Part shown: positions 8,265 through 33,139 of the stretch, piece after piece
How positions within the stretch are numbered: the stretch's first letter is position 1
Layout of the letters: every line of letters starts with the position of its first letter
From: Chitinophaga pinensis
GTDB taxonomy: Bacteria > Bacteroidota > Bacteroidia > Chitinophagales > Chitinophagaceae
Assembly: GCA_945860605.1 (NCBI GenBank)
Contig: CAMAQL010000003.1
Location: 1 to 59,706, forward strand
Reading direction: 5' to 3'
Length of the DNA stretch: 59,706 nt
Position numbers and translations under genes: made by a program
The notes under the pieces: generated by a model
Databases searched by the model: none
What the model saw: the letters and a program-made list of their open reading frames with translations, nothing else
What the model was told of the DNA's origin: nothing

Positions 8265-8972
8265 TTATAATTTTTGGATACGAATATTTCTGTACCAAAC
8301 TTGATCACCATGATCTTGCAAGCTGATATGCCCAGAAAATACTTTTCCAAAATCAGGTGATTCACCTTTCGAAAATTTACTTTTTCTAATTAACTCTTTC
8401 CAACTATCATCGCCTAAATGTGTGTTTACAGTGGTTACACCATTTAATTTCATGATTAAAACACCTTTGTTTACAATGATGTCTACTTGATTCCATTCTT
8501 CTGCAAGTTTAGCGCCAGACTCATCGCCAACAATCAGGTCATATAAATTGCCAGCTCTGTGGCTAATGATTTTACCATCTGGGTGACCTTCGTTATCTAA
8601 GACTTGCATTTCGGGTCCAGTGTGCCAAGTATTTTTATATTTTGATGGGTCATTTTGTACAAAAAAGATAATACCACTATTACCATTTTTAGCAATTTTC
8701 CATTCTAATTGCAAATGGAAATCTGAAAAACTTTCGTTGGTGACAATATCACCACCACCTACTATTCTTCCATATAACTTATTACTTGGGTCAAACATGA
8801 TTGCACCGTCTACTACTTTCCATGCTTCACCTGCAGTTTTTTTCCCGAATGTATGCCAGCCGTTGGTTGTTTTTCCGTCAAATAAAGAGATCCATTTTTC
8901 TTGAGCTTGAGTTTGATTAAAACCAAGCACTGCAAAAGTCAATAAGGTTAGAGCAAGTAATTGTTTTTTCAT
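8265..8972 (-). CDS. DUF1080 protein, probable periplasmic 3-keto-disaccharide hydrolase
   Basis: The 235-residue secreted protein has a Sec signal peptide (MKKQLLALTLLTFAVLGF to TQAQ) and one DUF1080 domain, a concanavalin-like beta sandwich. Diagnostic blocks are WISLFDGKTTNGWHTFG at the mature N-terminus, DFHLQLEWKIAKNGNSGIIFF, TGPEMQVLDNEGHPD, AEEWNQVDIIV and the C-terminal GHISLQDHGDQVWYRNIRI. Pfam names this family (PF06439) 3-keto-disaccharide hydrolase; members cleave glycosides already oxidised at C3. That activity here is inferred from family and context: the cytochrome c gene lies 2 bases upstream on the same strand, and a GMC dehydrogenase lies across the divergent promoter region. 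Confidence 0.88.
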   Translation of the reverse strand: MKKQLLALTLLTFAVLGFNQTQAQEKWISLFDGKTTNGWHTFGKKTAGEAWKVVDGAIMFDPSNKLYGRIVGGGDIVTNESFSDFHLQLEWKIAKNGNSGIIFFVQNDPSKYKNTWHTGPEMQVLDNEGHPDGKIISHRAGNLYDLIVGDESGAKLAEEWNQVDIIVNKGVLIMKLNGVTTVNTHLGDDSWKELIRKSKFSKGESPDFGKVFSGHISLQDHGDQVWYRNIRIQKL

Positions 8973-8974
8973 AA

Positions 8975-9361
8975 TTATTTTTTTAATAGTAAAATGTATT
9001 TCACCATCGCTTCTGCATCCTCCTCGCTCAGGTTTGCATGCGCTGTCATTGGGATAGCACCCCAGTTGCCACTTCCGCCTTTGATAATTTTTCCGGCTAG
9101 CATTTCAATATTGTCATCTGTATTTTCATATTTAGCTGCTACATCTTGGTAAGCTGGTCCTATACTTTTTTCAGCTACTTTATGACAGGTTAAACAATCG
9201 CTTCCTGCAATCAAGGCCAATCCTTTTGAATAATCCGGATTGTCAGATAATTTAGTTTCCGAAGTAGTGGTTGTTTCTGTTGTAGATGTTTTGTTGGTTG
9301 CTCCACCACCACAGGCCGCTAGGAAAATGGCTGCTGTTAGGGTGTATAAAATTTTATGCAT
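8975..9361 (-). CDS. Class I cytochrome c lipoprotein
   Basis: The 128-residue protein has a lipoprotein signal with lipobox LAAC (Cys17), then a Thr/Ser-rich linker. A single c-type heme domain follows: CLTCH (Cys56, Cys59, His60) with the distal Met ligand in IPMTAH (Met105). It is therefore a membrane-anchored periplasmic electron carrier. It sits between a TIM-barrel isomerase gene and the DUF1080 gene (2-base gap) on one strand. I infer it may accept electrons from the GMC dehydrogenase at 12822-14501. A general respiratory role is the alternative. Confidence 0.9.
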   Translation of the reverse strand: MHKILYTLTAAIFLAACGGGATNKTSTTETTTTSETKLSDNPDYSKGLALIAGSDCLTCHKVAEKSIGPAYQDVAAKYENTDDNIEMLAGKIIKGGSGNWGAIPMTAHANLSEEDAEAMVKYILLLKK

Positions 9362-9434
9362 ACTGTTATATTTGATTGTGTAAATTATATTCTTGATTTG
9401 AATTCTTGATTTGACTAAATATTTTACTTCTTGA

Positions 9435-10487
9435 CTAAATGCCTAATATTTTTTTGTTAAACGCCTCGTCCGATCCTGTACTAGCAAAATCATCAAAAGC
9501 TTTTGCTGTTATAGGGATGATATGGTTTTGAATAAATACAGCACCTTCTGCTGCACCCACTTCTGGATGCTTTAAACAACATTCCCATTCCAATACTGCC
9601 CAACCTTTATAATCATAAGCTGCTAGCTTGCTAAAGATACTTTTAAAATCTACTTGGCCATCACCAAGGGATCTAAATCTTCCAGCACGATCGATCCAGT
9701 TTTGATAACCACCATATACGCCTTGCTTTGCACTCGGATTAAACTCGGCATCTTTTACATGAAACATTTTGATACGCTCATGGTATGCGTCGATATAGCC
9801 TTTATAGTCCATGCATTGCAATACCAAATGCGATGGATCAAATAATAAACAAGCACGAGGATGTTGTCCCACTTTATCTAAAAACATTTCATAGGAAATG
9901 CCATCATGCAAATCCTCTCCTGGATGAATTTCATAACATAAGTCTACGCCAGCAGCATCAAATTCATTTAAAATTGGCAACCATCTTTTTCCTAATTCTG
10001 TAAAGCCTGTTTCGACTAAACCTGCAGGTCTTTGTGGCCATGGATAAACGGTATGCCATAATAAAGCACCGCTAAAAGTGGCGTGTGCATTCAATCCTAA
10101 ATGTTGAGATGCTTTTGCTGCATATTTTAATTGTTGTATGGCCCATTCAGTTCTTGCTTTGGGACTGCCTCTATATTCAACTGGTGCAAAGCCATCAAAT
10201 TGCGCATCATAGGCAGGATGCACTGCCACTAATTGTCCTTGTAAATGTGTAGACAATTCTGTGATCTCTAATCCAGCAGCCTGCACAATGCCTTTAATCT
10301 CGTCGGCATAGGTTTTGCTTTCTGCTGCTTTTTGTAAATCAATACAGCGTGCGTCCCAACTTGGAATTTGTACACCCTTGAAACCCAATCCTGCAGCCCA
10401 TTTGCAGATTCCCTCTAAAGTATTGAATGGAGAATGATCTCCTAAAAATTGTGCTAAAAATATACCTGGTCCTTTTACTGTTGTCAT
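9435..10487 (-). CDS. Sugar phosphate isomerase/epimerase-like TIM-barrel protein
   Basis: This 350-residue xylose-isomerase-like TIM barrel (AP endonuclease 2 superfamily) has no signal peptide, so it is cytoplasmic. Metal-site blocks are CYEIHPGEDLHDG, LLFDPSHLVLQ, KMFHVKDAEF and AVLEWECC, carrying the Glu, Asp/His, His and Glu ligands expected for a divalent metal. The N-terminal GPGIFLAQFLGDHSPFNTLEGI resembles isomerases paired with Gfo/Idh oxidoreductases in sugar catabolism. It follows such an oxidoreductase gene by 32 bases. I infer that it isomerises or epimerises a keto-sugar released by the locus; the exact substrate cannot be read. Confidence 0.85.
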   Translation of the reverse strand: MTTVKGPGIFLAQFLGDHSPFNTLEGICKWAAGLGFKGVQIPSWDARCIDLQKAAESKTYADEIKGIVQAAGLEITELSTHLQGQLVAVHPAYDAQFDGFAPVEYRGSPKARTEWAIQQLKYAAKASQHLGLNAHATFSGALLWHTVYPWPQRPAGLVETGFTELGKRWLPILNEFDAAGVDLCYEIHPGEDLHDGISYEMFLDKVGQHPRACLLFDPSHLVLQCMDYKGYIDAYHERIKMFHVKDAEFNPSAKQGVYGGYQNWIDRAGRFRSLGDGQVDFKSIFSKLAAYDYKGWAVLEWECCLKHPEVGAAEGAVFIQNHIIPITAKAFDDFASTGSDEAFNKKILGI

Positions 10488-10519
10488 ATGATAATGATTG
10501 CCTTTTTTAAATATCGCAT

Positions 10520-11686
10520 TTAAATTTTATGTGCCGTCCATTTTTGATCAGAACCTGCAGATAAAACTACATTGTCAATAAATGCCATCCCTCTAATTCC
10601 ATCTTCTACGCCTGGGAAATCTAACATTTCGGGTGTTGGAATAGTGCCATCCATTTTTGCAGACAAAGTAAGTGCAAAGTTTCTATAAATATTAGCGAAT
10701 GCTTCTAAATAGCCTTCTGGATGTCCGCCAGGAGTGCGACAATTATGTGTTGCAAAGCTGGATAAATGAGCGCCGTAGTTGGCCCCTGCTCGTAAAATTT
10801 GTGTTGGCTGATCCAACCATTTTACAATGAGTGAATTGGGCTCATGTTGAAACCATTCAATTCCTCCTTGTTCTCCGTATACTCTAATCTTTAATGCATT
10901 CTCCTCGCCTGCGGCCACTTGCGATGCCATCAATACGCCCTTTGCGCCATTGTCAAATTTCAACATGACTGCGCCATCATCATCCATCGCACGGCCATCT
11001 ACTAATGTGTTTAATTCTGCACAGATATCAGTGATTTTTGCACCAGTAATGTATTCGGCTAAATGGGCAGCATGCGTTCCAATATCACCCATCACAGAAC
11101 TCTTACCCGATTTTTTTGGATCCGTTCTCCATGCTGCTTGTGCATTGCCTTCTCTTTCCGACAGTCTACTTAACCATCCTTGTGGATATTCCACCCACAC
11201 CTTACGAATCTTACCCAGCTTGCCTTCGCGCACCATGGCCTTTGCTTGCTTGACCATTGGATAACCAGAATAGGTATGCGTTAAGCAAAGCGTTAAGCCT
11301 GTTTCTTTCAATTTTTGTGCTAATAATTTTGCTTCTTCTAAGGAGAAAGTAATTGGTTTTTCTATCACTACATTGAAACCATTTTCCAAAGCCATCATAG
11401 CAGGTGCAAAATGTGCAAAATTTGGTGTTACAATGGTTATGAAATCAATGCGCTCATCGGCTGGCAATTGCGCTTCTTTTGTAATCATCTCCTCATATGT
11501 TAAGTAGGTTCTTTCCTTAGGAAGAAACAAAGCTTCTCCAGAGGCTACAGCTATTTCTGGGTTGATACTTAATGCACCACATTTGACCTCAATGAGCCCA
11601 TCCATATTTGCGGCAAGTCTGTGTATGGCGCCAATGAATGCGTCCTTTCCACCACCTACCATACCCATGCGTAGTTTTCTGTTCAT
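10520..11686 (-). CDS. Gfo/Idh/MocA-family oxidoreductase (cytoplasmic)
   Basis: The 388-residue NAD(P)-dependent oxidoreductase has an N-terminal Rossmann domain (LRMGMVGGGKDAFIGAIH), the family EKP motif (VVIEKPITFSLEEA) and a C-terminal beta-sheet domain with MGDIGTHAAHLAEYITG holding the catalytic His. It has no signal peptide. It is the first gene of the minus-strand arm, which continues with the TIM-barrel gene. Family members reduce or oxidise sugar hydroxyls, and some act as 3-keto-sugar reductases; that activity is inferred here from context. Gene length and start (MNRKLRMGMVGGG) are normal. Confidence 0.88.
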   Translation of the reverse strand: MNRKLRMGMVGGGKDAFIGAIHRLAANMDGLIEVKCGALSINPEIAVASGEALFLPKERTYLTYEEMITKEAQLPADERIDFITIVTPNFAHFAPAMMALENGFNVVIEKPITFSLEEAKLLAQKLKETGLTLCLTHTYSGYPMVKQAKAMVREGKLGKIRKVWVEYPQGWLSRLSEREGNAQAAWRTDPKKSGKSSVMGDIGTHAAHLAEYITGAKITDICAELNTLVDGRAMDDDGAVMLKFDNGAKGVLMASQVAAGEENALKIRVYGEQGGIEWFQHEPNSLIVKWLDQPTQILRAGANYGAHLSSFATHNCRTPGGHPEGYLEAFANIYRNFALTLSAKMDGTIPTPEMLDFPGVEDGIRGMAFIDNVVLSAGSDQKWTAHKI

Positions 11687-11807
11687 TTTTTAGGGAGTAT
11701 TTATGCTTACAAAATAAGCTGAATGTGTCAAAATAACACGTTCATCCTATTGTAAGAGCAATTTCCTCATTATTTCTCAAAAAACCCCTTTTTTCCATGG
11801 AAAATAT

Positions 11808-11839
11808 TTGAAAAGAATGCAAAAATAAATTTACATTTA
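11808..11839 (+). promoter_or_regulatory. Candidate promoter of the GMC dehydrogenase operon
   Basis: TTG at 11808-11810 and TACATTTA at 11832-11839 (seven of eight consensus positions) are separated by 21 bases, the same spacing as in the candidate promoter at 29062-29093. The box lies about 26 bases before the proposed start at 11866. The 11687-11865 gap between the two divergent arms contains nothing else I can assign. Confidence 0.4.
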
Positions 11840-11865
11840 TAAACTCATCCAAATGCATGCTTGCT

Positions 11866-12774
11866 ATGTCTACAAAGCTCAATAGACGAAATTTACTGAA
11901 ACAAGTTTTATCCGGATCTGCCGCGATGGCTGCTGGTTTGGCGTTACCACATCAAGCGACTGCGCAATTAGCAAATCTATCCAATCCACCAGCTGATGCA
12001 GCTAATTTAAAAGGCAATATCAACCATAGTGTTTGCAGATGGTGTTACAGTGATTTTAGTTTAGAAGATTTATGTAAGGAAGTAAAAAGTATCGGATTCA
12101 ACGCCATTGATTTATTAAAACCAACTGAGTGGGATACGGTAAAAAAATATGGCATTGACTGTTCCATGTGTTATACTGCTGGTGAAACAAGTTTGACAAA
12201 AGGTTGGAATAACCCGATGCATCATCCTTGGTTGATCAAAGATTATTTGGAAGCAATTCCATTGGTAGCAGCAGCTGGGTATAAAAATTTAATTTGTTTT
12301 TCGGGAAATAGAAATGGCATGGATGACGCTACAGGATTGAAAAATTGCGTTGAAGGACTAAAAAAAATCATGCCATTAGCAGAAGCGAAAGGTGTGACCA
12401 TTCATATTGAATTATTCAATTCCAAAGTAGACCATAAAGATTATATGGGTGATAAATCTGCATGGGGTATCGAACTATGTAAACAATTGGGCTCTCCTAA
12501 TTTTAAAATTTTATTTGACATTTATCATATGCAAATAGATGAGGGAGATATCATTCGTTCTATTCAAGACAGTCATACTTATTTTGGGCATTATCACACT
12601 GCGGGTGTTCCAGGTAGACATGAATTAGATGATCGTCAGGAATTAAATTATCCAGCCATCATGCGTGCGATCAAAGCCACTGGTTACAATGGTTATGTGG
12701 CACATGAATTCATTGCAACGAACCCAGATAAAATTAGTTCACTCAAGCAAGCTGTTACAGTTTGCGATATTTAA
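11866..12774 (+). CDS. Tat-exported TIM-barrel isomerase-like protein (hydroxypyruvate isomerase-like)
   Basis: The protein begins with a twin-arginine signal (NRRNLLKQVLSGSAAMAAGLA, cleavage near ATA-QL) followed by a xylose-isomerase-like TIM barrel. Metal and substrate blocks are CRWCYSDFSLEDL, VTIHIELFNSKVDHKD, ILFDIYHMQIDEGD, GHYHTAGVPGRHEL and GYVAHEF, resembling hydroxypyruvate isomerase (Hyi)-type proteins. Export of a folded metal enzyme by Tat makes it periplasmic. I prefer the ATG at 11866 (302 residues); ATG at 11857 adds three residues. It leads the plus-strand arm, 47 bases before the GMC dehydrogenase gene. An isomerase acting on oxidised sugars in the periplasm is inferred. 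Confidence 0.85.
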   Translation: MSTKLNRRNLLKQVLSGSAAMAAGLALPHQATAQLANLSNPPADAANLKGNINHSVCRWCYSDFSLEDLCKEVKSIGFNAIDLLKPTEWDTVKKYGIDCSMCYTAGETSLTKGWNNPMHHPWLIKDYLEAIPLVAAAGYKNLICFSGNRNGMDDATGLKNCVEGLKKIMPLAEAKGVTIHIELFNSKVDHKDYMGDKSAWGIELCKQLGSPNFKILFDIYHMQIDEGDIIRSIQDSHTYFGHYHTAGVPGRHELDDRQELNYPAIMRAIKATGYNGYVAHEFIATNPDKISSLKQAVTVCDI

Positions 12775-12821
12775 ATAATACTTTTATAAACCAATCATAA
12801 TAACTCATAAATTTTTTTACA

Positions 12822-14501
12822 ATGGCCGAACAACAGTATGACGCAATCGTAGTAGGTTCTGGAATCAGTGGCGGATGGGCTGCAAAAGAGCTTACAGAAA
12901 AAGGACTTAAAGTTTTAATGTTAGAGCGTGGAAGAAACATCGAACACATTAAGGACTATGTGAATGCAGATAAAGAATCATGGGATTTTCCACATAGAGG
13001 TGGTAGAACACAACAGATGATCGAAGATTATCCTGTGTTAAAACGCGACTACCCGTTGAACGAAACGAATTTAGATTACTGGTGTTCTGATAAGGATCAT
13101 CCGTATACAGAAACAAAACGTTTTGATTGGTTTAGAGGATACCATGTTGGTGGTCGTTCTTTAATGTGGGGTCGTCAGTCTTATCGTTGGGCGGATGCTG
13201 ATTTTGAAGCGAATGCAAAAGACGGTATCGCAGTTGACTGGCCTGTACGTTATAAAGAGATTGAGCCATGGTATGATTATGTAGAAAAATTTGCAGGCAT
13301 TAGTGGAAATAGAGATGGGATTGATTTATTGCCTGATGGTCAGTTTTTACCTCCAATGGATTTGACATGTGTGGAGAAAGACGTGGCTGCAAGAATCAAA
13401 GAAATTTATAAAGGAAGCCGTCATTTAATCATTGGACGTACGGCTAATATTACTGTGCCACATGAAGGTCGTCCTGGTTGCCAGTTCAGAAATAAGTGTT
13501 GGTTGGGTTGTCAGTTTGGTGGATATTTTAGTACGCAATCTTCTACTTTACCAGCTGCAGTAGCAACAGGAAATTTAACTTTAAGACCTTTTTCTATTGT
13601 GACAGAAATCAAATATGATAAAGATAAAAAGCGTGCGACTGGCGTAACGGTATTAGATGCTGAGACCAATAAAACAATAGAGTATAAAGCAAAAATTATT
13701 TTTGTGAATGCCTCTACTTTAAACAGCACTTGGCTCTTGATGAATTCTGCTACAGATGTTTGGGAAGGTGGACTAGGAAGTAGCAGTGATGCATTGGGTA
13801 AAAATTTAATGGACCACCATTTAGGTAATCGTGCAGGTGGCACAATAGAAGGGTATGAAGACAAATACACATTTGGTCGTCGCGCCAATGGTTTCTATAT
13901 TCCAAGATTTAGAAACCTTGGGGATGAGAAGCGTGATTATATCAGAGGATTTGGTTACCAAGGTGGTGCCAACAGAGAAGGATGGGGTCACGATGTGGCA
14001 GAAGTGAGTATCGGTGGTAAATTTAAAGATGCATTGACTGAACCAGGTGGATGGTCTATTGGTATGATGGGCTTTGGTGAAATGTTACCAGACGAAACCA
14101 ATAAAGTGACTTTAGATAAAACTAAAAAAGATAAGTGGGGATTGAATGTCTTGAACATTGATTGTGAGTTGAAAGACAATGAAATCAAAATGCGTAAAGA
14201 CATTTTAGAAGACGCAAAAGAAATGCTGGAGCGTGCAGGTGCTAAAAATGTACAAGGTTTTGAAGGAGATGGTACACCAGGTAGAGGTATTCATGAAATG
14301 GGTACTGCGCGTATGGGTAGAGATCCTAAGACTTCTGTATTGAATGGCAATAACCAAGTATGGGATGCACCGAATGTATTTGTGACGGATGGTTCGTTCA
14401 TGACAAGTGCAAACTGCGTGAACCCTTCATTAACTTATATGGCATTCACTGCAAGAGCGGTAGACTTTGCTGTATCAGAATTGAAAAAAGGAAACTTATA
14501 A
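12822..14501 (+). CDS. GMC-family FAD dehydrogenase with CX5CX3C motif (probable glycoside 3-dehydrogenase large subunit)
   Basis: The 559-residue flavoprotein has the FAD-binding Rossmann motif (DAIVVGSGISGGWAA, then the Glu-containing LERG), the GMC segment GGRSLMWGRQSYRW, and the C-terminal active site with His491 (HEMGTARMG) and Asn534 (NPSLTY). Cys220, Cys226 and Cys230 form CX5CX3C, the arrangement that binds a [3Fe-4S] cluster in bacterial FAD glucose dehydrogenase alpha subunits. Electrons can then leave to a cytochrome rather than to oxygen. There is no signal peptide, as in that family, where the subunit is carried out by its Tat partner, here encoded 22 bases downstream. Glycoside C3 oxidation is inferred from the DUF1080, isomerase and cytochrome neighbours; simple glucose or alcohol oxidation is the alternative. 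Confidence 0.88.
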   Translation: MAEQQYDAIVVGSGISGGWAAKELTEKGLKVLMLERGRNIEHIKDYVNADKESWDFPHRGGRTQQMIEDYPVLKRDYPLNETNLDYWCSDKDHPYTETKRFDWFRGYHVGGRSLMWGRQSYRWADADFEANAKDGIAVDWPVRYKEIEPWYDYVEKFAGISGNRDGIDLLPDGQFLPPMDLTCVEKDVAARIKEIYKGSRHLIIGRTANITVPHEGRPGCQFRNKCWLGCQFGGYFSTQSSTLPAAVATGNLTLRPFSIVTEIKYDKDKKRATGVTVLDAETNKTIEYKAKIIFVNASTLNSTWLLMNSATDVWEGGLGSSSDALGKNLMDHHLGNRAGGTIEGYEDKYTFGRRANGFYIPRFRNLGDEKRDYIRGFGYQGGANREGWGHDVAEVSIGGKFKDALTEPGGWSIGMMGFGEMLPDETNKVTLDKTKKDKWGLNVLNIDCELKDNEIKMRKDILEDAKEMLERAGAKNVQGFEGDGTPGRGIHEMGTARMGRDPKTSVLNGNNQVWDAPNVFVTDGSFMTSANCVNPSLTYMAFTARAVDFAVSELKKGNL

Positions 14502-14523
14502 TTTAATTTTTAAAAAATATTTT

Positions 14524-15090
14524 ATGATAAATAGAAGAGAAGCCCTTTCTAGAGTTGCCATCATCATGGGTGGAACAGTTTTAGGTGCAGAAGCTTTTTT
14601 GACTGGTTGTAAAACCAATACCAAGGGGGTGACTTTCTCCCAAGCAGATATTGACTTTTTAAACGAAGTGGGTGAAACCATCCTACCTGCAACCGATACA
14701 CCAGGTGCAAAAGCTGCCAATGTAGGCGCTTTCATGCAAATCATGGTGAGCGATTGTTACGAAGCAAAGGACCAAGAAATTTTTATGAAGGGTATGGAGG
14801 AATTGAATGCTGCTTCTAAAAAGCACCACAATAAAGCATTCATGGAATCTACTCCAGAAGAGCGTACTGCTTTCTTAACTGAACTAGATCAAGAAGCGAA
14901 GGAGTACCAAAAAAATAAAAAACAAGAAGACCCTACGCATTACTTTACCATGATGAAGCAAATGACTTTATCTGGTTTGTTTACTTCAAAAATTGGTGCA
15001 ACAGAAGTGCTCAGATATGTAGCTGTTCCTGGTAAGTATGAAGGTTGTATGCCTTATACAAAAGGAGAAAAAGCTTGGGCTACTTCTTAA
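14524..15090 (+). CDS. Gluconate 2-dehydrogenase subunit 3-family protein (small subunit of the GMC dehydrogenase)
   Basis: The 188-residue partner starts with a twin-arginine signal (NRREALSRVAIIMGG) ending in a lipobox (LTGC, Cys29), so it is a Tat-exported lipoprotein. The body matches the subunit 3 family: FSQADIDFLNEVGETILPATDTPGAKAA near the N-terminus, then a helical region and MTLSGLFTSKIGATEVLRYVAVPGKYEGC. In FAD-dehydrogenase complexes this subunit is required to export and mature the GMC subunit. Here it would dock the complex on the membrane. Spacing of 22 bases from the GMC gene and the following terminator support one operon. Confidence 0.9.
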   Translation: MINRREALSRVAIIMGGTVLGAEAFLTGCKTNTKGVTFSQADIDFLNEVGETILPATDTPGAKAANVGAFMQIMVSDCYEAKDQEIFMKGMEELNAASKKHHNKAFMESTPEERTAFLTELDQEAKEYQKNKKQEDPTHYFTMMKQMTLSGLFTSKIGATEVLRYVAVPGKYEGCMPYTKGEKAWATS

Positions 15091-15102
15091 AAAAAAGATA
15101 CT

Positions 15103-15133
15103 ACTGAGCCTCCAAAAGGAGGCTCAGTTTTTA
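15103..15133 (+). terminator. Rho-independent terminator after the GMC operon
   Basis: A perfect 11-base stem (15103-15113 with 15118-15128) with an AAAA loop is followed by TTTTT. It separates the dehydrogenase operon from the next TIM-barrel gene. Confidence 0.9.
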
Positions 15134-15164
15134 CAATTATTCATTTGGTTTTCAATTTTAATTT

Positions 15165-16028
15165 ATGTCAAATTCAAGAAGAAGTTTTTTACGTGGTGCC
15201 GCTTTAACAAGTGTGGCATTGTCAATACCATTTAAAAATGAGTTAATGGCGATGGCGCCAAAGTCTAATCCATTTGGAATTCAATTGTGGTCAGTGAAAC
15301 AAGCATTGGCAAAAGATCCACTTGGGGTTTTAAAACAAATTGCTGCCAATGGCTATACAAAAATTGAAAGCTTCGAAGGTCCTAAAGGCATGTTTTGGGG
15401 TATGAAAAATACGGAGTTCAAAAAAGTAATGGATGATTTAGGAATGAATATGATTTCGACGCATTGTAATGATACTGGTAATTTTAAATCTTTCGAACAA
15501 AAGGCTGCAGCGGCGGGCGAAATTGGTTTAAAGTATATCATATGTGCATTTAAAGGGCCACAGAAAACGCTTGATAATTTTAAGCAATTTGCTGATGAGT
15601 TTAATGCATGTGGTGAAATTGCAAAAAAACATGGTCTTCGTTTTGCTTACCATAATCATGATTATTCTTTCAAGGCTATGGAAGGAATTGTCCCTCAGGA
15701 TTTAATGATGAAAAATACGGACCCAGCTATAGTGGATTTTGAAATGGATATGTATTGGACAGCAGCTGCAGGCGTAGATCCACTTGCATACATGGACAAG
15801 TTTCCTAATCGTTTTAAATTAGTGCATGTGAAAGATATGACTAAGATAGCCACTGGGCATGAGTCATGCGTGATTGGGAAAGGCACTATTGATTATAAAA
15901 CTTTATTACCAAAAGTTGCAAAACGTGGTGTAGCGCATATGATTGTAGAACAAGAACACTATAGAGGATCCAATGAATTAGATGCGGCAAGAGATGACGC
16001 TGCTTATGTCAAAACATTGAATTGGTAA
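15165..16028 (+). CDS. Tat-exported TIM-barrel sugar isomerase/epimerase-like protein
   Basis: This 287-residue xylose-isomerase-like TIM barrel has a twin-arginine signal (NSRRSFLRGAALTSVALSI). Blocks are FGIQLWSVKQALAKDP, MISTHCND, LRFAYHNHDYSF, VDFEMDMYWTAAAGVDP, FKLVHVKDM and MIVEQEHY. The His, Glu/Asp and final Glu ligands lie where the family expects a metal. It is periplasmic if Tat-exported. It follows the terminator of the GMC operon by 32 bases, so it may be separately transcribed or reached by read-through. Role in isomerising keto-sugars is inferred; its relation to the other two TIM barrels of the locus cannot be resolved by eye. Confidence 0.85.
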   Translation: MSNSRRSFLRGAALTSVALSIPFKNELMAMAPKSNPFGIQLWSVKQALAKDPLGVLKQIAANGYTKIESFEGPKGMFWGMKNTEFKKVMDDLGMNMISTHCNDTGNFKSFEQKAAAAGEIGLKYIICAFKGPQKTLDNFKQFADEFNACGEIAKKHGLRFAYHNHDYSFKAMEGIVPQDLMMKNTDPAIVDFEMDMYWTAAAGVDPLAYMDKFPNRFKLVHVKDMTKIATGHESCVIGKGTIDYKTLLPKVAKRGVAHMIVEQEHYRGSNELDAARDDAAYVKTLNW

Positions 16029-16046
16029 GGATACCAAGGATTAAAT

Positions 16047-16080
16047 AAAAAAAGGGACACGATTCGTGTCCCTTTTTTTA
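16047..16080. terminator. Bidirectional terminator between convergent genes
   Basis: A stem of nine pairs (16053-16061 with 16065-16073) has an A-run on the left and a T-run on the right. It separates the plus-strand TIM-barrel gene from the minus-strand aminotransferase-like gene. Confidence 0.85.
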
Positions 16081-16107
16081 TAGCTATACAATAAGATGTA
16101 CGATATT

Positions 16108-17274
16108 TTACTTTAAAAGTATTCCTTGCTTTTGAATCTCTTTTATTGCATTGTACAACGCATCTAGATTCTCCACTGAATTAAAAGCATTGATTGAATA
16201 TCTTAAATACACATCGTTGCCTTGTCGCATGATGGGCACTTCTATTTTATAATCTAAAAATAACGTCCTTTGTAATTTTTCTGGATCTGGCGTTTGAATT
16301 GGAATGCTAATCATTTGTCCAATCCACTCACTATTGAGTGGGCAAATTGGCTTACTATTGAATAAGTCAAAAAATCTTGGAGCATTTTCTAATACCATTT
16401 CATGACATTGTTGTCCAACAGCTTTCCAGTTGTGTTGCTCCATGAATTCAATACAAGTGTCTACAGTTAGGAAGGCCGAAAAGTCTCTGGTACCAATCAT
16501 TTGGTGGTAGTCTAAAAAATTAGAATGCGATGGCTTGGCAGCTTGGTAACCCCAGCTTACAATCATTGGATCACAAATGGGTTGTACTGCTTTTGCAGCG
16601 TATAAAAAGGAACATCCTTTTGGCGCCATCATCCACTTATGACAAGCACCTGTATAAAAATCTGCCTGAATTTGATTTAGGTCTAATGGGATATGTGCAG
16701 GTGCATGCGCGCCATCTACAATAGTAATAAGTCCTTTTGCTTTAGCGATGGCACAAATTTCTTCTGCTGGTAAAATCAATCCAGTAGCACTTGTGATATG
16801 AGAAATGAAAATGGCTTTTGTCTTTTCATTACATCCTTTAAAAAAATCTTCAATGAATTGCTCCTTGTTTAAAATGGGGAAGTTGATTTTTTGTCTTCTG
16901 TAATTAGCACCTTTTTTCTTGCAATAATATTCCCATGTTCTGTCACAAGCGCCGTATTCAATATCAGTAGCTAAAATTTCGTCCCCCGCTTCTAAAGGAA
17001 AACTTTTAGCAATCATATTGATTGCAAAACTTGGATTGGTGACATAGACCAAATCATCTTTGTCCGCACAGTTCAAAAACTTAGCCAATGCAGCTCTTGA
17101 ATCTGCAAGGTATTGATAGCCATCAAATGCGATGAACTGCACGGGCTCGGCCTCTAAAACCCTTTGCCATGCTTGGTATTTTTCGAATATTGGTTTTGGT
17201 GTAGCACCAAAAGACCCGAAATTCAAAAAATGAATATCGGGTCTTAGTAAAAATTGATCTTTTAAAGATTCCAT
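16108..17274 (-). CDS. Aminotransferase class V-fold PLP enzyme (isopenicillin-N epimerase-like)
   Basis: The 388-residue fold-type I PLP enzyme opens with FLNFGSFGATPKPIFEKYQ, a start typical of the isopenicillin-N epimerase/CsdA-like branch. It has the cofactor Asp and His in IVDGAHAPAHIPLDL and the Schiff-base Lys213 in GACHKWMMAPKG. No signal peptide is present. Its substrate cannot be told; such proteins may act as epimerases, lyases or desulfurases on amino acids. It is 11 bases downstream of the Tat-exported Gfo/Idh gene on the same strand and probably shares its transcript. Its link to the sugar locus is positional only. Confidence 0.85.
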   Translation of the reverse strand: MESLKDQFLLRPDIHFLNFGSFGATPKPIFEKYQAWQRVLEAEPVQFIAFDGYQYLADSRAALAKFLNCADKDDLVYVTNPSFAINMIAKSFPLEAGDEILATDIEYGACDRTWEYYCKKKGANYRRQKINFPILNKEQFIEDFFKGCNEKTKAIFISHITSATGLILPAEEICAIAKAKGLITIVDGAHAPAHIPLDLNQIQADFYTGACHKWMMAPKGCSFLYAAKAVQPICDPMIVSWGYQAAKPSHSNFLDYHQMIGTRDFSAFLTVDTCIEFMEQHNWKAVGQQCHEMVLENAPRFFDLFNSKPICPLNSEWIGQMISIPIQTPDPEKLQRTLFLDYKIEVPIMRQGNDVYLRYSINAFNSVENLDALYNAIKEIQKQGILLK

Positions 17275-17285
17275 ATTTTTTTTAA

Positions 17286-18734
17286 TTATGAACCTAAGCT
17301 CCAGCCTTCACGATAAGCACGTTTTACAAACTGATTTGCTAAGTCGAAATTAGTGATCTTCATATTTGGACCATCCCAGATTAATTGAATATTTCTTCCT
17401 GGATAGCTCGTCAATCCTTTTGCATCATTGGCTTTGACATCATAAGAACGGATAGCTAAATTACCCATCAATACCGATTCAGTCAATGGTCCTGCAATAT
17501 CAAAATTAGAACTCAATGCTTTTGCTTCTTTACTTCCTGGTCCTGCTTTACAGGCTTCAACCCATGCTGCATAGTGTCCATTGTCACCATTTTTAACTCT
17601 TTCAATGGTTTGCGGCACTTTTGTAGTTGCTGTTAAATTAGTTGGTAATAATTGAGGGTTTGCACCGTAAGTACCTGCCATCATCTTGCCTTTTGTTCCT
17701 TCAAAGATGATACCATTACCGCCATCACCCATGACTTCGTTTGGTCCTAATTCAGCTGGTCTTTCTGGTTGAATACCTCCATCCATCCAATGTAATTTGA
17801 CATCTGGTTTTCCGTTTTGTCCTTTGAAAGTTAAAATGATATGTGATGCTGCTGGTGGACTATCTGGTGAATACACTCTTTGCCATGGTGCAGTATACCT
17901 TGTTGCTACACTACATTCTGCAGAAACAGGATAACCTAATCCAAGCACAGCAAAACCTGGTGCCATAATATGACATGCCATATCTCCTAATGCACCGGTT
18001 CCATAATCCCACCATCCTCTCCAGTTAAACGGTAAAACGTTATCAAAATAAGCCTTTTGAGGTGCTGTACCTAACCATAAATCATAGTCTAAACCTGCCG
18101 GAATTGCAGAAGCTGTCGTTGGACGAATCACGCCTTGTGGCCATACTGGACGGTCTGTGTAACAATAAATTGTATGCACATCCCCAATCAATCCTGCATT
18201 GTACCAATCTTGCAACATACGCACCCCGTCTCCTGAAGCACCTTGGTTACCCATTTGTGTGACAACATTATATTTATGTGCAGCTTCTGTCATGATTCTA
18301 GCTTCGTAGATATCATGTGCCATTGGCTTTTGCACATATACGTGTTTATTTAATTGCATTGCGGCCATGGCTTGTACACCGTGCATATGGTCTGGTGTAG
18401 AAACAGAAACTGCATTAATATTCTTGTGTTCTTTGTCTAACATTTCTCTATAATCCTTATAGTATTTTGCTTTCGGAAATCTTTGAAGACTCTTTACAGC
18501 TTGTCGATCATCTACATCACATAAGAATGCGATATCTGCTTTTCCACTTTGATAAAATGCCCATAAGTCACTTTCTCCTTTACCTCCAGCACCAATACCG
18601 GCAACTTGTAATTTATCACTTGGAGCGGTAAATCCTGGTCCACCCAATACATGTCTAGGGACAATGTAAAATCCGCCTAAAGCCAGTGCGGCATTTTTGA
18701 CGAAGTCTCTTCTTGATTTTACGGTTTTTTTCAT
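17286..18734 (-). CDS. Tat-exported Gfo/Idh/MocA-family oxidoreductase
   Basis: The 482-residue protein has a twin-arginine signal (SRRDFVKNAALALGGFYIV) followed by a Rossmann domain (LQVAGIGAGGKGESDLW), the motif VYVQKPMAHDIYEA (QKP in place of EKP) and WWDYGTGALGDMACHIM in the catalytic region. Tat export fits a protein that folds with a tightly bound NAD(P) in the cytoplasm, as in glucose-fructose oxidoreductase. The long C-terminal part (Gfo_Idh_MocA_C and Bacteroidota-type extension) accounts for the size. I chose ATG at 18734 because the signal then starts MKKTVKSRRDF; ATG at 18743 adds three residues. In the sugar locus it may reduce or oxidise sugars in the periplasm. Confidence 0.87.
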   Translation of the reverse strand: MKKTVKSRRDFVKNAALALGGFYIVPRHVLGGPGFTAPSDKLQVAGIGAGGKGESDLWAFYQSGKADIAFLCDVDDRQAVKSLQRFPKAKYYKDYREMLDKEHKNINAVSVSTPDHMHGVQAMAAMQLNKHVYVQKPMAHDIYEARIMTEAAHKYNVVTQMGNQGASGDGVRMLQDWYNAGLIGDVHTIYCYTDRPVWPQGVIRPTTASAIPAGLDYDLWLGTAPQKAYFDNVLPFNWRGWWDYGTGALGDMACHIMAPGFAVLGLGYPVSAECSVATRYTAPWQRVYSPDSPPAASHIILTFKGQNGKPDVKLHWMDGGIQPERPAELGPNEVMGDGGNGIIFEGTKGKMMAGTYGANPQLLPTNLTATTKVPQTIERVKNGDNGHYAAWVEACKAGPGSKEAKALSSNFDIAGPLTESVLMGNLAIRSYDVKANDAKGLTSYPGRNIQLIWDGPNMKITNFDLANQFVKRAYREGWSLGS

Positions 18735-18885
18735 AGCAATCATTTAAATAGGAGGGGTACCCCTTCGGTTTTTTAAGTAGGTTAAATTATTGAAAATTGC
18801 CCAAATGCTGAAATTATTTTTATGAACGTATAAATTGGCATGGGTATGGGGATTAAAGTTTAAATTGCTATACATTTTATACGCT

Positions 18886-32287: not shown

Positions 32288-33139
32288 TTATTCCCACTCT
32301 TCTTCAGCCTTCTTCACACTTTTATAAGCCCATCTAGACACGATAATACTTAATTCAAATAAGGAATATAAAGGAATAAAAACCAATAACTGACTATACC
32401 AATCCGGACTTGGTGTAATGAATGCAGCCACAATTAAAATAACAACAGCTGCATATTTACGCGCTCCGCTTAAAAACTTAGGGGTGACGATGCCTATTTT
32501 AGTTAATAAGAACGCCAATACAGGTAATTCAAACGCAATGCCACAGCCCAATATCAGGTTGGTTAAATTATCTAAGTAATCTGCAAAAGTAGGCATGGTC
32601 GTAATCACATTCTTGGTACCTAATTGGAAGCTTGCTAAGAAATTAAAAGTGAATGGACCTAATATGAAAAATCCAAACGCTGCGCCTAAGAAGAAAAAGA
32701 AGGAGACCCAAAAAATCATGAATCTTGTATTGCTTAATTCACGCTCTTTTAAAGCAGGCTTGATAAAGGACCAAAATTGATAAAAAATAAACGGGAAAGC
32801 TGTAATGATGCCACCCACAATCGCCATGCTAATACTACTCAAAAACTGTCCACCAAATGTGGTGCTTTGCATGGTTACTTTCACAGCAGGCATACACAAT
32901 GCATTGCCTAATCCAGCCCAATGACTGAATTCGCAAAATAAACGATAGGTAATAAAATCTGGTTGAATCGGACCCGTAATGATGTTGTCCATGACCCAGT
33001 CACGCTTAATGAAAATCACTAAGGCCATGACCAAAATTGCTGCTGCAGATCTTACGATGGTACCTCGTAAGACTTCGAGATGATCGATGAAAGACATCTC
33101 GGAACCATCTTTTGAATTTAAACGATCAAATAGTGCCAT
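32288..33139 (-). CDS. tatC: Sec-independent protein translocase TatC
   Basis: TatC is the signal-binding core of the twin-arginine translocase. The 283-residue protein has the N-terminal MSFIDHLEVLR motif, six hydrophobic segments, and FPFIFYQFWSFIKPALKERE in the second part. A longer first periplasmic loop (residues about 50-90) is common in Bacteroidota. tatA or tatB is not present within the window. Four predicted Tat substrates (11866, 14524, 15165 and 18734 starts) are encoded 13-20 kb away in the sugar locus and would depend on it. Confidence 0.95.
   Translation of the reverse strand: MALFDRLNSKDGSEMSFIDHLEVLRGTIVRSAAAILVMALVIFIKRDWVMDNIITGPIQPDFITYRLFCEFSHWAGLGNALCMPAVKVTMQSTTFGGQFLSSISMAIVGGIITAFPFIFYQFWSFIKPALKERELSNTRFMIFWVSFFFFLGAAFGFFILGPFTFNFLASFQLGTKNVITTMPTFADYLDNLTNLILGCGIAFELPVLAFLLTKIGIVTPKFLSGARKYAAVVILIVAAFITPSPDWYSQLLVFIPLYSLFELSIIVSRWAYKSVKKAEEEWE

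Follow-up and report, generated by a model that had tools for sequence, protein, structure and literature searches.

The stretch of DNA analysed here, referred to as the window, comprises 59,706 nucleotides from Chitinophaga pinensis (assembly GCA_945860605.1, contig CAMAQL010000003.1, positions 1 to 59,706). Between positions 8265 and 18743 it carries a cluster of ten genes that we propose to be a locus for glycoside utilisation by oxidation, elimination, hydration and reduction, a reading to which we assign a probability of about 0.8. A preliminary description of the same DNA had suggested oxidation of a glycoside at C3 followed by processing of the 3-keto sugar, and this general interpretation is the best one. 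All ten open reading frames (ORFs) are intact and their families score above the Pfam curated cut-offs (Table 1), with 123.4, 90.7 and 57.0 bits for the three xylose-isomerase-like TIM barrels and 101.0 and 63.1 bits for the two Gfo/Idh proteins. Nine of the ten had been listed at the outset, all with families that Pfam supports, but the class V aminotransferase-like gene had been left out. The gene families, the export-signal patterns, the closeness of the hydratase to its Agrobacterium counterpart AtHYD and the clustering of the genes are features of the sequence itself.

We favour the four-step order because one barrel is 67% identical to AtHYD and another is lyase-like. The first, of 350 amino acids (aa), aligns over its full length with structure 8ro4 (E 1.6e-172, 236/350 residues identical), titled 2-hydroxy-3-keto-glucal hydratase AtHYD from Agrobacterium tumefaciens, and of its 96 orthologues 92 to 96 retain each of four acidic and histidine motifs. 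It is very probably a 2-hydroxy-3-keto-glucal hydratase. The 388-aa Gfo/Idh protein encoded beside it (Gfo388), whose best solved relative is 3v5n (E 7.4e-102), is a putative 3-keto-glucose reductase.

How would an oxidised glycoside be cleaved? The DUF1080 protein is identical to 3osd at 85 of 209 residues and gives similar scores with 8rr2 and 8tda, a group that we take to be BT2157, preferring alpha-glycosides; a Q[DN]HG motif is present in 62 of 64 orthologues. The 287-aa barrel matches 8tcd (E 1.1e-33) and 8tct (E 1.1e-30), titled 3-keto-beta-glucopyranoside-1,2-lyases of Alistipes sp. and Bacteroides thetaiotaomicron, and more weakly AtOGE (8bvk, E 2.8e-14), and its fold agrees. A 3-keto-glycoside lyase, as in systems of the Agrobacterium GlycDH type, is thus represented, by homology only, by these two proteins. 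The DUF1080 protein is a probable periplasmic 3-keto-glycoside lyase, and cleavage most likely proceeds by elimination and not by plain hydrolysis.

For the oxidation step, the GMC flavoprotein is the probable catalytic subunit of a glycoside 3-dehydrogenase. It has a Cx5Cx3C motif at residues 220-230, a pattern shared by 69 of 69 orthologues, which is presumably the [3Fe-4S] site of fructose and glucose dehydrogenases. The Gluconate_2-dh3 small subunit, with twin arginines in 50 and a lipobox in 47 of 51 orthologues, would serve as the probable carrier of the GMC subunit through the twin-arginine translocation (Tat) pathway. Pfam and signal patterns therefore place in the window the pairing of flavoprotein dehydrogenase and Tat small subunit that marks GlycDH-type systems. 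The small cytochrome c (CxxCH in 78 and a lipobox pattern in 49 of 79 orthologues) is a probable electron acceptor of the complex.

Export signals were assessed by simple patterns on orthologues of 40% identity or more, instead of by a trained predictor; the hydrophobic pattern was also positive on all 69 GMC proteins, which have a Rossmann start, and was left unused for them. The twin-arginine pattern is found in 43 of 48 orthologues of the 305-aa barrel, 31 of 32 of the 287-aa barrel and 31 of 32 of the 485-aa Gfo/Idh protein (Gfo485). Twin-arginine, lipobox and hydrophobic patterns are absent from all 96 hydratase orthologues; twin-arginine and lipobox patterns are likewise absent from all 95 of Gfo388, 20 of which show the hydrophobic pattern. 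A hydrophobic stretch is seen in 40 of 64 DUF1080 and 67 of 79 cytochrome c orthologues. Because twin arginines are kept in the Tat-type proteins and occur in 0/96 hydratases and 0/95 Gfo388 proteins, and a TatC gene is present within the window (32372-33085), we conclude that the periplasm is probably the site of oxidation and cleavage and the cytosol that of hydration and reduction. The pathway as a whole had been described as periplasmic; this probably holds for its first two steps but not for the hydratase and Gfo388.

We can therefore outline a model in which the GMC protein and its small subunit, exported together by Tat, would oxidise a glycoside at C3 in the periplasm and pass electrons to the cytochrome c. 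The 3-keto-glycoside would then be cleaved there by the lyases through elimination, and the elimination product or 3-keto-glucose would enter the cytosol, perhaps via a permease encoded elsewhere in the genome. In the cytosol the 350-aa hydratase would form 3-keto-glucose, which Gfo388 would reduce to glucose. The C3 position, the substrate, the anomer preference, the transport and the direction of the Gfo/Idh reactions are what we infer.

Table 1. Genes and intergenic region of the locus in the window, with predicted assignments
Feature	Position	Strand	Evidence or remark
DUF1080 (PF06439), 3keto-disac_hyd	8265..8972	-	Pfam 160.3 bits; Sec-type signal peptide by eye
Small cytochrome c, lipoprotein-like	8975..9361	-	Pfam 39.2 bits
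350-aa TIM barrel, 2-hydroxy-3-keto-glucal hydratase by homology	9435..10487	-	match to 8ro4 (AtHYD)
388-aa Gfo/Idh/MocA oxidoreductase (Gfo388)	10520..11686	-	Pfam
Divergent intergenic region, 170 bp	11687..11856	.	permease gene at this place in many homologous loci
305-aa Tat-type TIM barrel, ketose-3-epimerase/YcjR-like	11857..12774	+	sequence and fold matches
GMC flavoprotein	12822..14501	+	Pfam GMC C-domain 81.7, N-domain 63.1 bits
Gluconate_2-dh3 small subunit, Tat-lipoprotein-like signal	14524..15090	+	Pfam 135.2 bits
287-aa Tat-type TIM barrel, 3-keto-beta-glucopyranoside-1,2-lyase relative	15165..16028	+	8tcd, 8tct matches
Class V aminotransferase-like protein	16108..17274	-	Pfam 118.2 bits
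485-aa Tat-type Gfo/Idh protein (Gfo485), BT_2158-like	17286..18743	-	NF058561, 8tdf matches

The conservation of these genes was followed in 117 genomes of the family, spanning 100 genera, with separate searches taken as one same sample and thresholds of E 1e-30 for GMC, 1e-10 for DUF1080 and 1e-100 for the hydratase. GMC is present in 81 genomes, DUF1080 in 82 and the hydratase in 78; GMC and DUF1080 occur together in 80 of the 81 GMC genomes, all three proteins in 78 and none in 34 of the 117. Gene neighbourhoods were compared in two sets, 20 family loci chosen from the 30 best-scoring GMC places (GMC thus 20/20 by construction) and 80 named loci representing the best 80 of at least 592 hydratase relatives (hydratase 80/80 by construction). 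Counts use 40% identity or more. The first counts had accepted any tblastn match at E 1e-6, including matches of 22-37%, and under the stricter recount DUF1080 is seen in 36 instead of 40 of the 49 GMC loci and the 287-aa barrel in 19 instead of 48 of the 80 named ones, which slightly reduced our confidence in the main reading. The loci end at about 20 kb or at contig ends and an unseen gene may lie beyond; in L048 and L056 a DUF1080 gene is found farther along the same contig. Two loci, L051 and L088, are apparently one contig, which leaves at least one duplicate in the pooled 101 loci, neither copy being among the 75 of at least 19 kb.

Within the family the order of the genes recurs from locus to locus, as the preliminary description had proposed to check. 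The 20 family loci contain the small subunit in 20, the 305-aa barrel in 19, Gfo388 in 18, the hydratase in 16 and DUF1080 in 15 cases, followed by the cytochrome (13), the 287-aa barrel (12), Gfo485 (7) and the aminotransferase (0). In the 80 named loci a Gfo388 relative accompanies the hydratase 78 times; the cytochrome (66), the 305-aa barrel (51), GMC and DUF1080 (48 each), the small subunit (41), Gfo485 (29), the 287-aa barrel (19) and the aminotransferase (7) are found less often. Among the 75 pooled loci of at least 19 kb, window included, GMC is present in 49, and these hold DUF1080 in 36 and the small subunit in 42 cases. From these counts the hydratase-reductase pair is the steadiest part of the locus, and the dehydrogenase and the lyases are more modular. 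The aminotransferase-like gene is found at more than 40% identity only in the window and in seven close relatives (L068-L074) among the 101 loci. The families involved are numerous, with up to 25 DUF1080 copies per family genome, and one might suppose that abundant genes have become neighbours by chance; this is barely conceivable in view of the recurrent divergent order, the 80/81 co-occurrence and the mere two DUF1080 genes of this genome, and we reject chance clustering as contradicted by the gene-order and co-occurrence data.

The locus core also occurs outside the Bacteroidota, on a Croceicoccus marinus plasmid that carries Gfo/Idh, hydratase, small subunit and GMC genes consecutively. 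A protein that shares 71% identity with the hydratase of the window is encoded on Klebsiella pneumoniae plasmids (NZ_CP063938.1 and NZ_CP132737.1). In two records titled Pelagibacteraceae (L144:10001-13679 and L147:10001-21050) the hydratase is present at about 71% and a Gfo388 relative at 45%, and no further gene of the locus is in view.

Several observations weigh against oxidation, elimination, hydration and reduction as we read them. The association of GMC with DUF1080 had been set beforehand as a point on which the preliminary reading could be refuted, and the outcome is mixed: it holds between genomes (Fisher p 6e-26, uncorrected for kinship, so that shared ancestry may contribute even though 100 genera are spanned) but only in part between loci: 13 of the 49 GMC loci have no DUF1080 of at least 40% identity in view, and 12 others have DUF1080 without GMC. 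The 287-aa barrel reaches 40% identity in just 19 of the 80 named loci. The 170-bp gap of the window's locus holds no permease, and the locus thus lacks the transporter of the Caulobacter LacABC cluster. According to PMC9007349, none of ten DUF1080 genes of Pedobacter shows a lactose phenotype, and according to PMC11501099 deletion of BT2157 or BT2158 in B. thetaiotaomicron leaves growth on raffinose-family sugars unaffected. The closest solved structures of the GMC protein are chains named fructose dehydrogenase large subunit and glucose dehydrogenase. These names would suit an enzyme that oxidises a free aldose or ketose, with the TIM barrels and Gfo enzymes serving inositol or levoglucosan use, as would weak matches to IolE (60.0 and 53.3 bits, cut-off 290) and to levoglucosan dehydrogenase (110.6 bits, cut-off 650). 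Such matches are far under their cut-offs, however. The hydratase, by contrast, aligns with AtHYD from end to end at 67%, and its locus also encodes DUF1080 and a relative of the 3-keto-lyases. We consider free-sugar oxidation very improbable, and inositol or levoglucosan catabolism is rejected, the family matches lying so far below the cut-offs.

The remaining points on this side concern Gfo485, which matches 8tdf at E 5e-101 and resembles the BT_2158 glycoside 3-dehydrogenase family (NF058561) at 486.1 bits, under the equivalog cut-off of 750. The cut-off of 650 for the BT_2159 family of disaccharide 3-dehydrogenases is not reached in the locus, where Gfo485 scores only 36.1 bits. Gfo485 might nevertheless be the enzyme that actually oxidises C3, or a periplasmic C3 transhydrogenase that binds its cofactor tightly; the GMC complex would then be an optional second entry. 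Two close relatives of the locus retain it without GMC: L071 (7100-8604) and L072 (7075-8598) have no GMC gene between the small subunit and the 305-aa barrel, while Gfo485, both Tat-type TIM barrels and the small subunit are kept. Gfo485 is also seen, with no GMC in view, in L138 and in L093, of which only 3.8 kb is available. Yet Gfo485 occurs in fewer loci than GMC in both sets (29 against 48 of the named and 7 against 20 of the family loci, the latter set being GMC-chosen), and further GMC genes, of 34-62% identity, which could pair with the small subunit, are present in the genomes of L071 and L072. A primary role for Gfo485 is accordingly unlikely in our estimate, and oxidation by the GMC complex is preferred. 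L071 also shows no DUF1080, and GMC matches of 34-37% are present in all eight close-relative genomes searched.

Pfam scans of the locus proteins gave no match to SusC/SusD or to a classical glycoside hydrolase family, in agreement with the preliminary description, and a classical polysaccharide utilisation locus is rejected on these grounds. From the same absence it had been argued that uptake works differently here, and this we do not uphold. In 43 loci the divergent Gfo388 and 305-aa barrel genes lie less than 3.5 kb apart, and in 17 of them an MFS_1-type permease is encoded in between. Of 15 loci without an MFS_1 hit that were examined, 13 have an ORF of 399-443 aa at this place, or 12 should L051 and L088 be a single contig; Pfam was applied to two of these ORFs and identified both as Nuc_H_symport permeases. 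The window and ten other loci (L054, L068-L075 and L078) have an arm gap of less than 400 bp and no permease there. A Hymenobacter volaticus plasmid combines GMC, small subunit, 'nucleoside permease', Gfo/Idh, hydratase, cytochrome, TIM barrel and DUF1080 genes with SusC/SusD and GH65. Since homologous loci carry permeases and one has SusCD next door, the missing permease and SusCD are local features and not another mode of action.

The window's own genome has a Nuc_H_symport gene (C1:56695-57873) that is 50-55% identical to three locus-type permeases and adjoins a Gfo/Idh gene and a NUDIX/AraR-type regulator; this unlinked permease may serve the pathway. The MFS_1-type permease of a same-genus relative has no match in the genome at E 1e-5. 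With permeases in many homologous loci and a related one elsewhere in the genome, the lack of an uptake route is rejected as a novelty. In the other two of the 15 examined loci (L099:5261-8656 and L105:4004-7408) a gene of about 1130 aa lies between the arms; the L099 protein is a single chain made up of ThuA, glucose/sorbosone dehydrogenase, PKD and cytochrome c domains.

The three TIM barrels had all been taken for isomerases, but with one resembling a hydratase and another a 3-keto-beta-glucoside lyase, only the third, of 305 aa, might be an epimerase. By sequence and fold it matches 3ngf, D-psicose 3-epimerases and 6wn6 (YcjR, 3-keto-D-glucoside 4-epimerase); its predicted structure (predicted local distance difference test, pLDDT, 75) has many epimerase-like matches and no clear winner. 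Residues E185, D221, H247 and E284 are present in all 14 aligned sequences and are putative metal ligands. A tentative suggestion, which we hold with the odds well against it, is that this enzyme is a periplasmic C4 epimerase of the YcjR kind, acting on 3-keto-glycosides or 3-keto-hexoses and converting 3-keto-galactosides into 3-keto-glucosides before elimination, and that uptake in the small-genome clade goes through the unlinked Nuc_H_symport permease. If so, one lyase, one hydratase and one reductase would serve both glucosides and galactosides, and the fate of 3-keto-galactose, called unknown in PMC9007349, would be answered.

Galactosides also figure in a related alternative that differs mainly in substrate. 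Here the locus would serve lactose or galactoside use of the LacABC kind, with GMC oxidising the galactosyl unit, DUF1080 cleaving the 3-keto-disaccharide, and glucose and 3-keto-galactose being recovered. Three Algoriphagus loci (L104, L113 and L114) fit such a scheme, holding DUF1080, cytochrome, hydratase, Gfo388, 305-aa barrel, GMC and small subunit; two of them have the 287-aa barrel, and Gfo485 is in view in none. The hydratase, on the other hand, is close to an enzyme acting on a glucose-derived glucal, and the small subunit has no match among the NCBIfam models at E 0.001. Use of galactosides is possible but the less likely case.

How does the locus compare with known systems? PMC10628242 describes an operon of A. 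tumefaciens (GlycDH, AtOGE, AtHYD, Gfo Oxo) in which the flavoenzyme GlycDH is encoded with two proteins called 'sugar phosphate isomerases' and a Gfo enzyme; four steps are assigned to it, with preliminary evidence for the hydratase, and GlycDH is used with a Tat-pathway protein from Rhizobium sp. GIN611. The window shares with it a flavoprotein dehydrogenase, a TIM-barrel lyase, the hydratase and a Gfo enzyme, and, as proposed, the order of oxidation, elimination, hydration and reduction. GlycDH itself we take to be a GMC-family enzyme. The window differs in adding DUF1080, cytochrome c, a second Tat-type TIM barrel and a Tat-type Gfo/Idh protein, and its beta-lyase is nearer to the Alistipes and Bacteroides lyases than to AtOGE. 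By description, it also resembles Caulobacter LacABC, reported in PMC9007349 with DUF1080, a transporter, two epimerases and a reductase, LacA standing near DUF1080 in Bacteroidetes; in both, a dehydrogenase complex lies beside DUF1080, epimerase-type and reductase genes, the transporter being the part that the window's locus lacks. The four-step logic is common to the levoglucosan pathway of LgdA, LgdB1, LgdB2 and LgdC (PMC10066097), but the latter starts with NAD-dependent LgdA, and Gfo388 is far under the levoglucosan dehydrogenase cut-off. Compared with a classical SusCD locus, the window's locus has neither the SusC/SusD pair nor a classical glycoside hydrolase. The BT2156-BT2160 set of B. 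thetaiotaomicron reportedly figures in Nature 2024 and Angewandte 2024 papers on this pathway; a DUF1080 protein, a BT_2158-like dehydrogenase and a 3-keto-beta-glucopyranoside-1,2-lyase relative are all found in the window. Unlike that set, the window's locus probably starts with a respiratory GMC complex and has Tat-type signals, and the BT_2158 and BT_2159 cut-offs are not reached.

The host genome measures 1.64 Mb in 114 contigs (98% complete) and has just two DUF1080 and two GMC matches, with four SusD matches outside the locus. The second GMC gene is paired with a Gluconate_2-dh3 gene (L155:8851-11248, contig C20), near methionyl-tRNA synthetase and class II ribonucleotide reductase genes. 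The second DUF1080 protein (L154:8977-9924, contig C2) has 315 aa, with the domain at residues 144-310, is 25% identical to the window's DUF1080 protein and adjoins a peroxidase-family gene. For the eight nearest named hydratase loci (L068-L075) the genome sizes range from 1.6 to 3.0 Mb. Because some titles among these name Loclat and Baikal and those of slightly more distant relatives Lac Pavin, we think of a freshwater group.

What are the implications of this locus? The type of system has already been described, in the Agrobacterium GlycDH operon and in LacABC clusters with DUF1080, and the window's locus looks like a well-preserved copy. It combines components described individually in Agrobacterium, Caulobacter and Bacteroides, their division between periplasm and cytosol being conserved, and it singles out a recurrent 305-aa enzyme that is easy to test. 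Labels such as 'hydrolase' for DUF1080 and 'isomerases' for the TIM barrels would mislead pathway prediction in this locus. With the hydratase in 78 of 117 genomes, the data suggest that a non-hydrolytic 3-keto route is common in the family and is retained even in a genome of 1.64 Mb.

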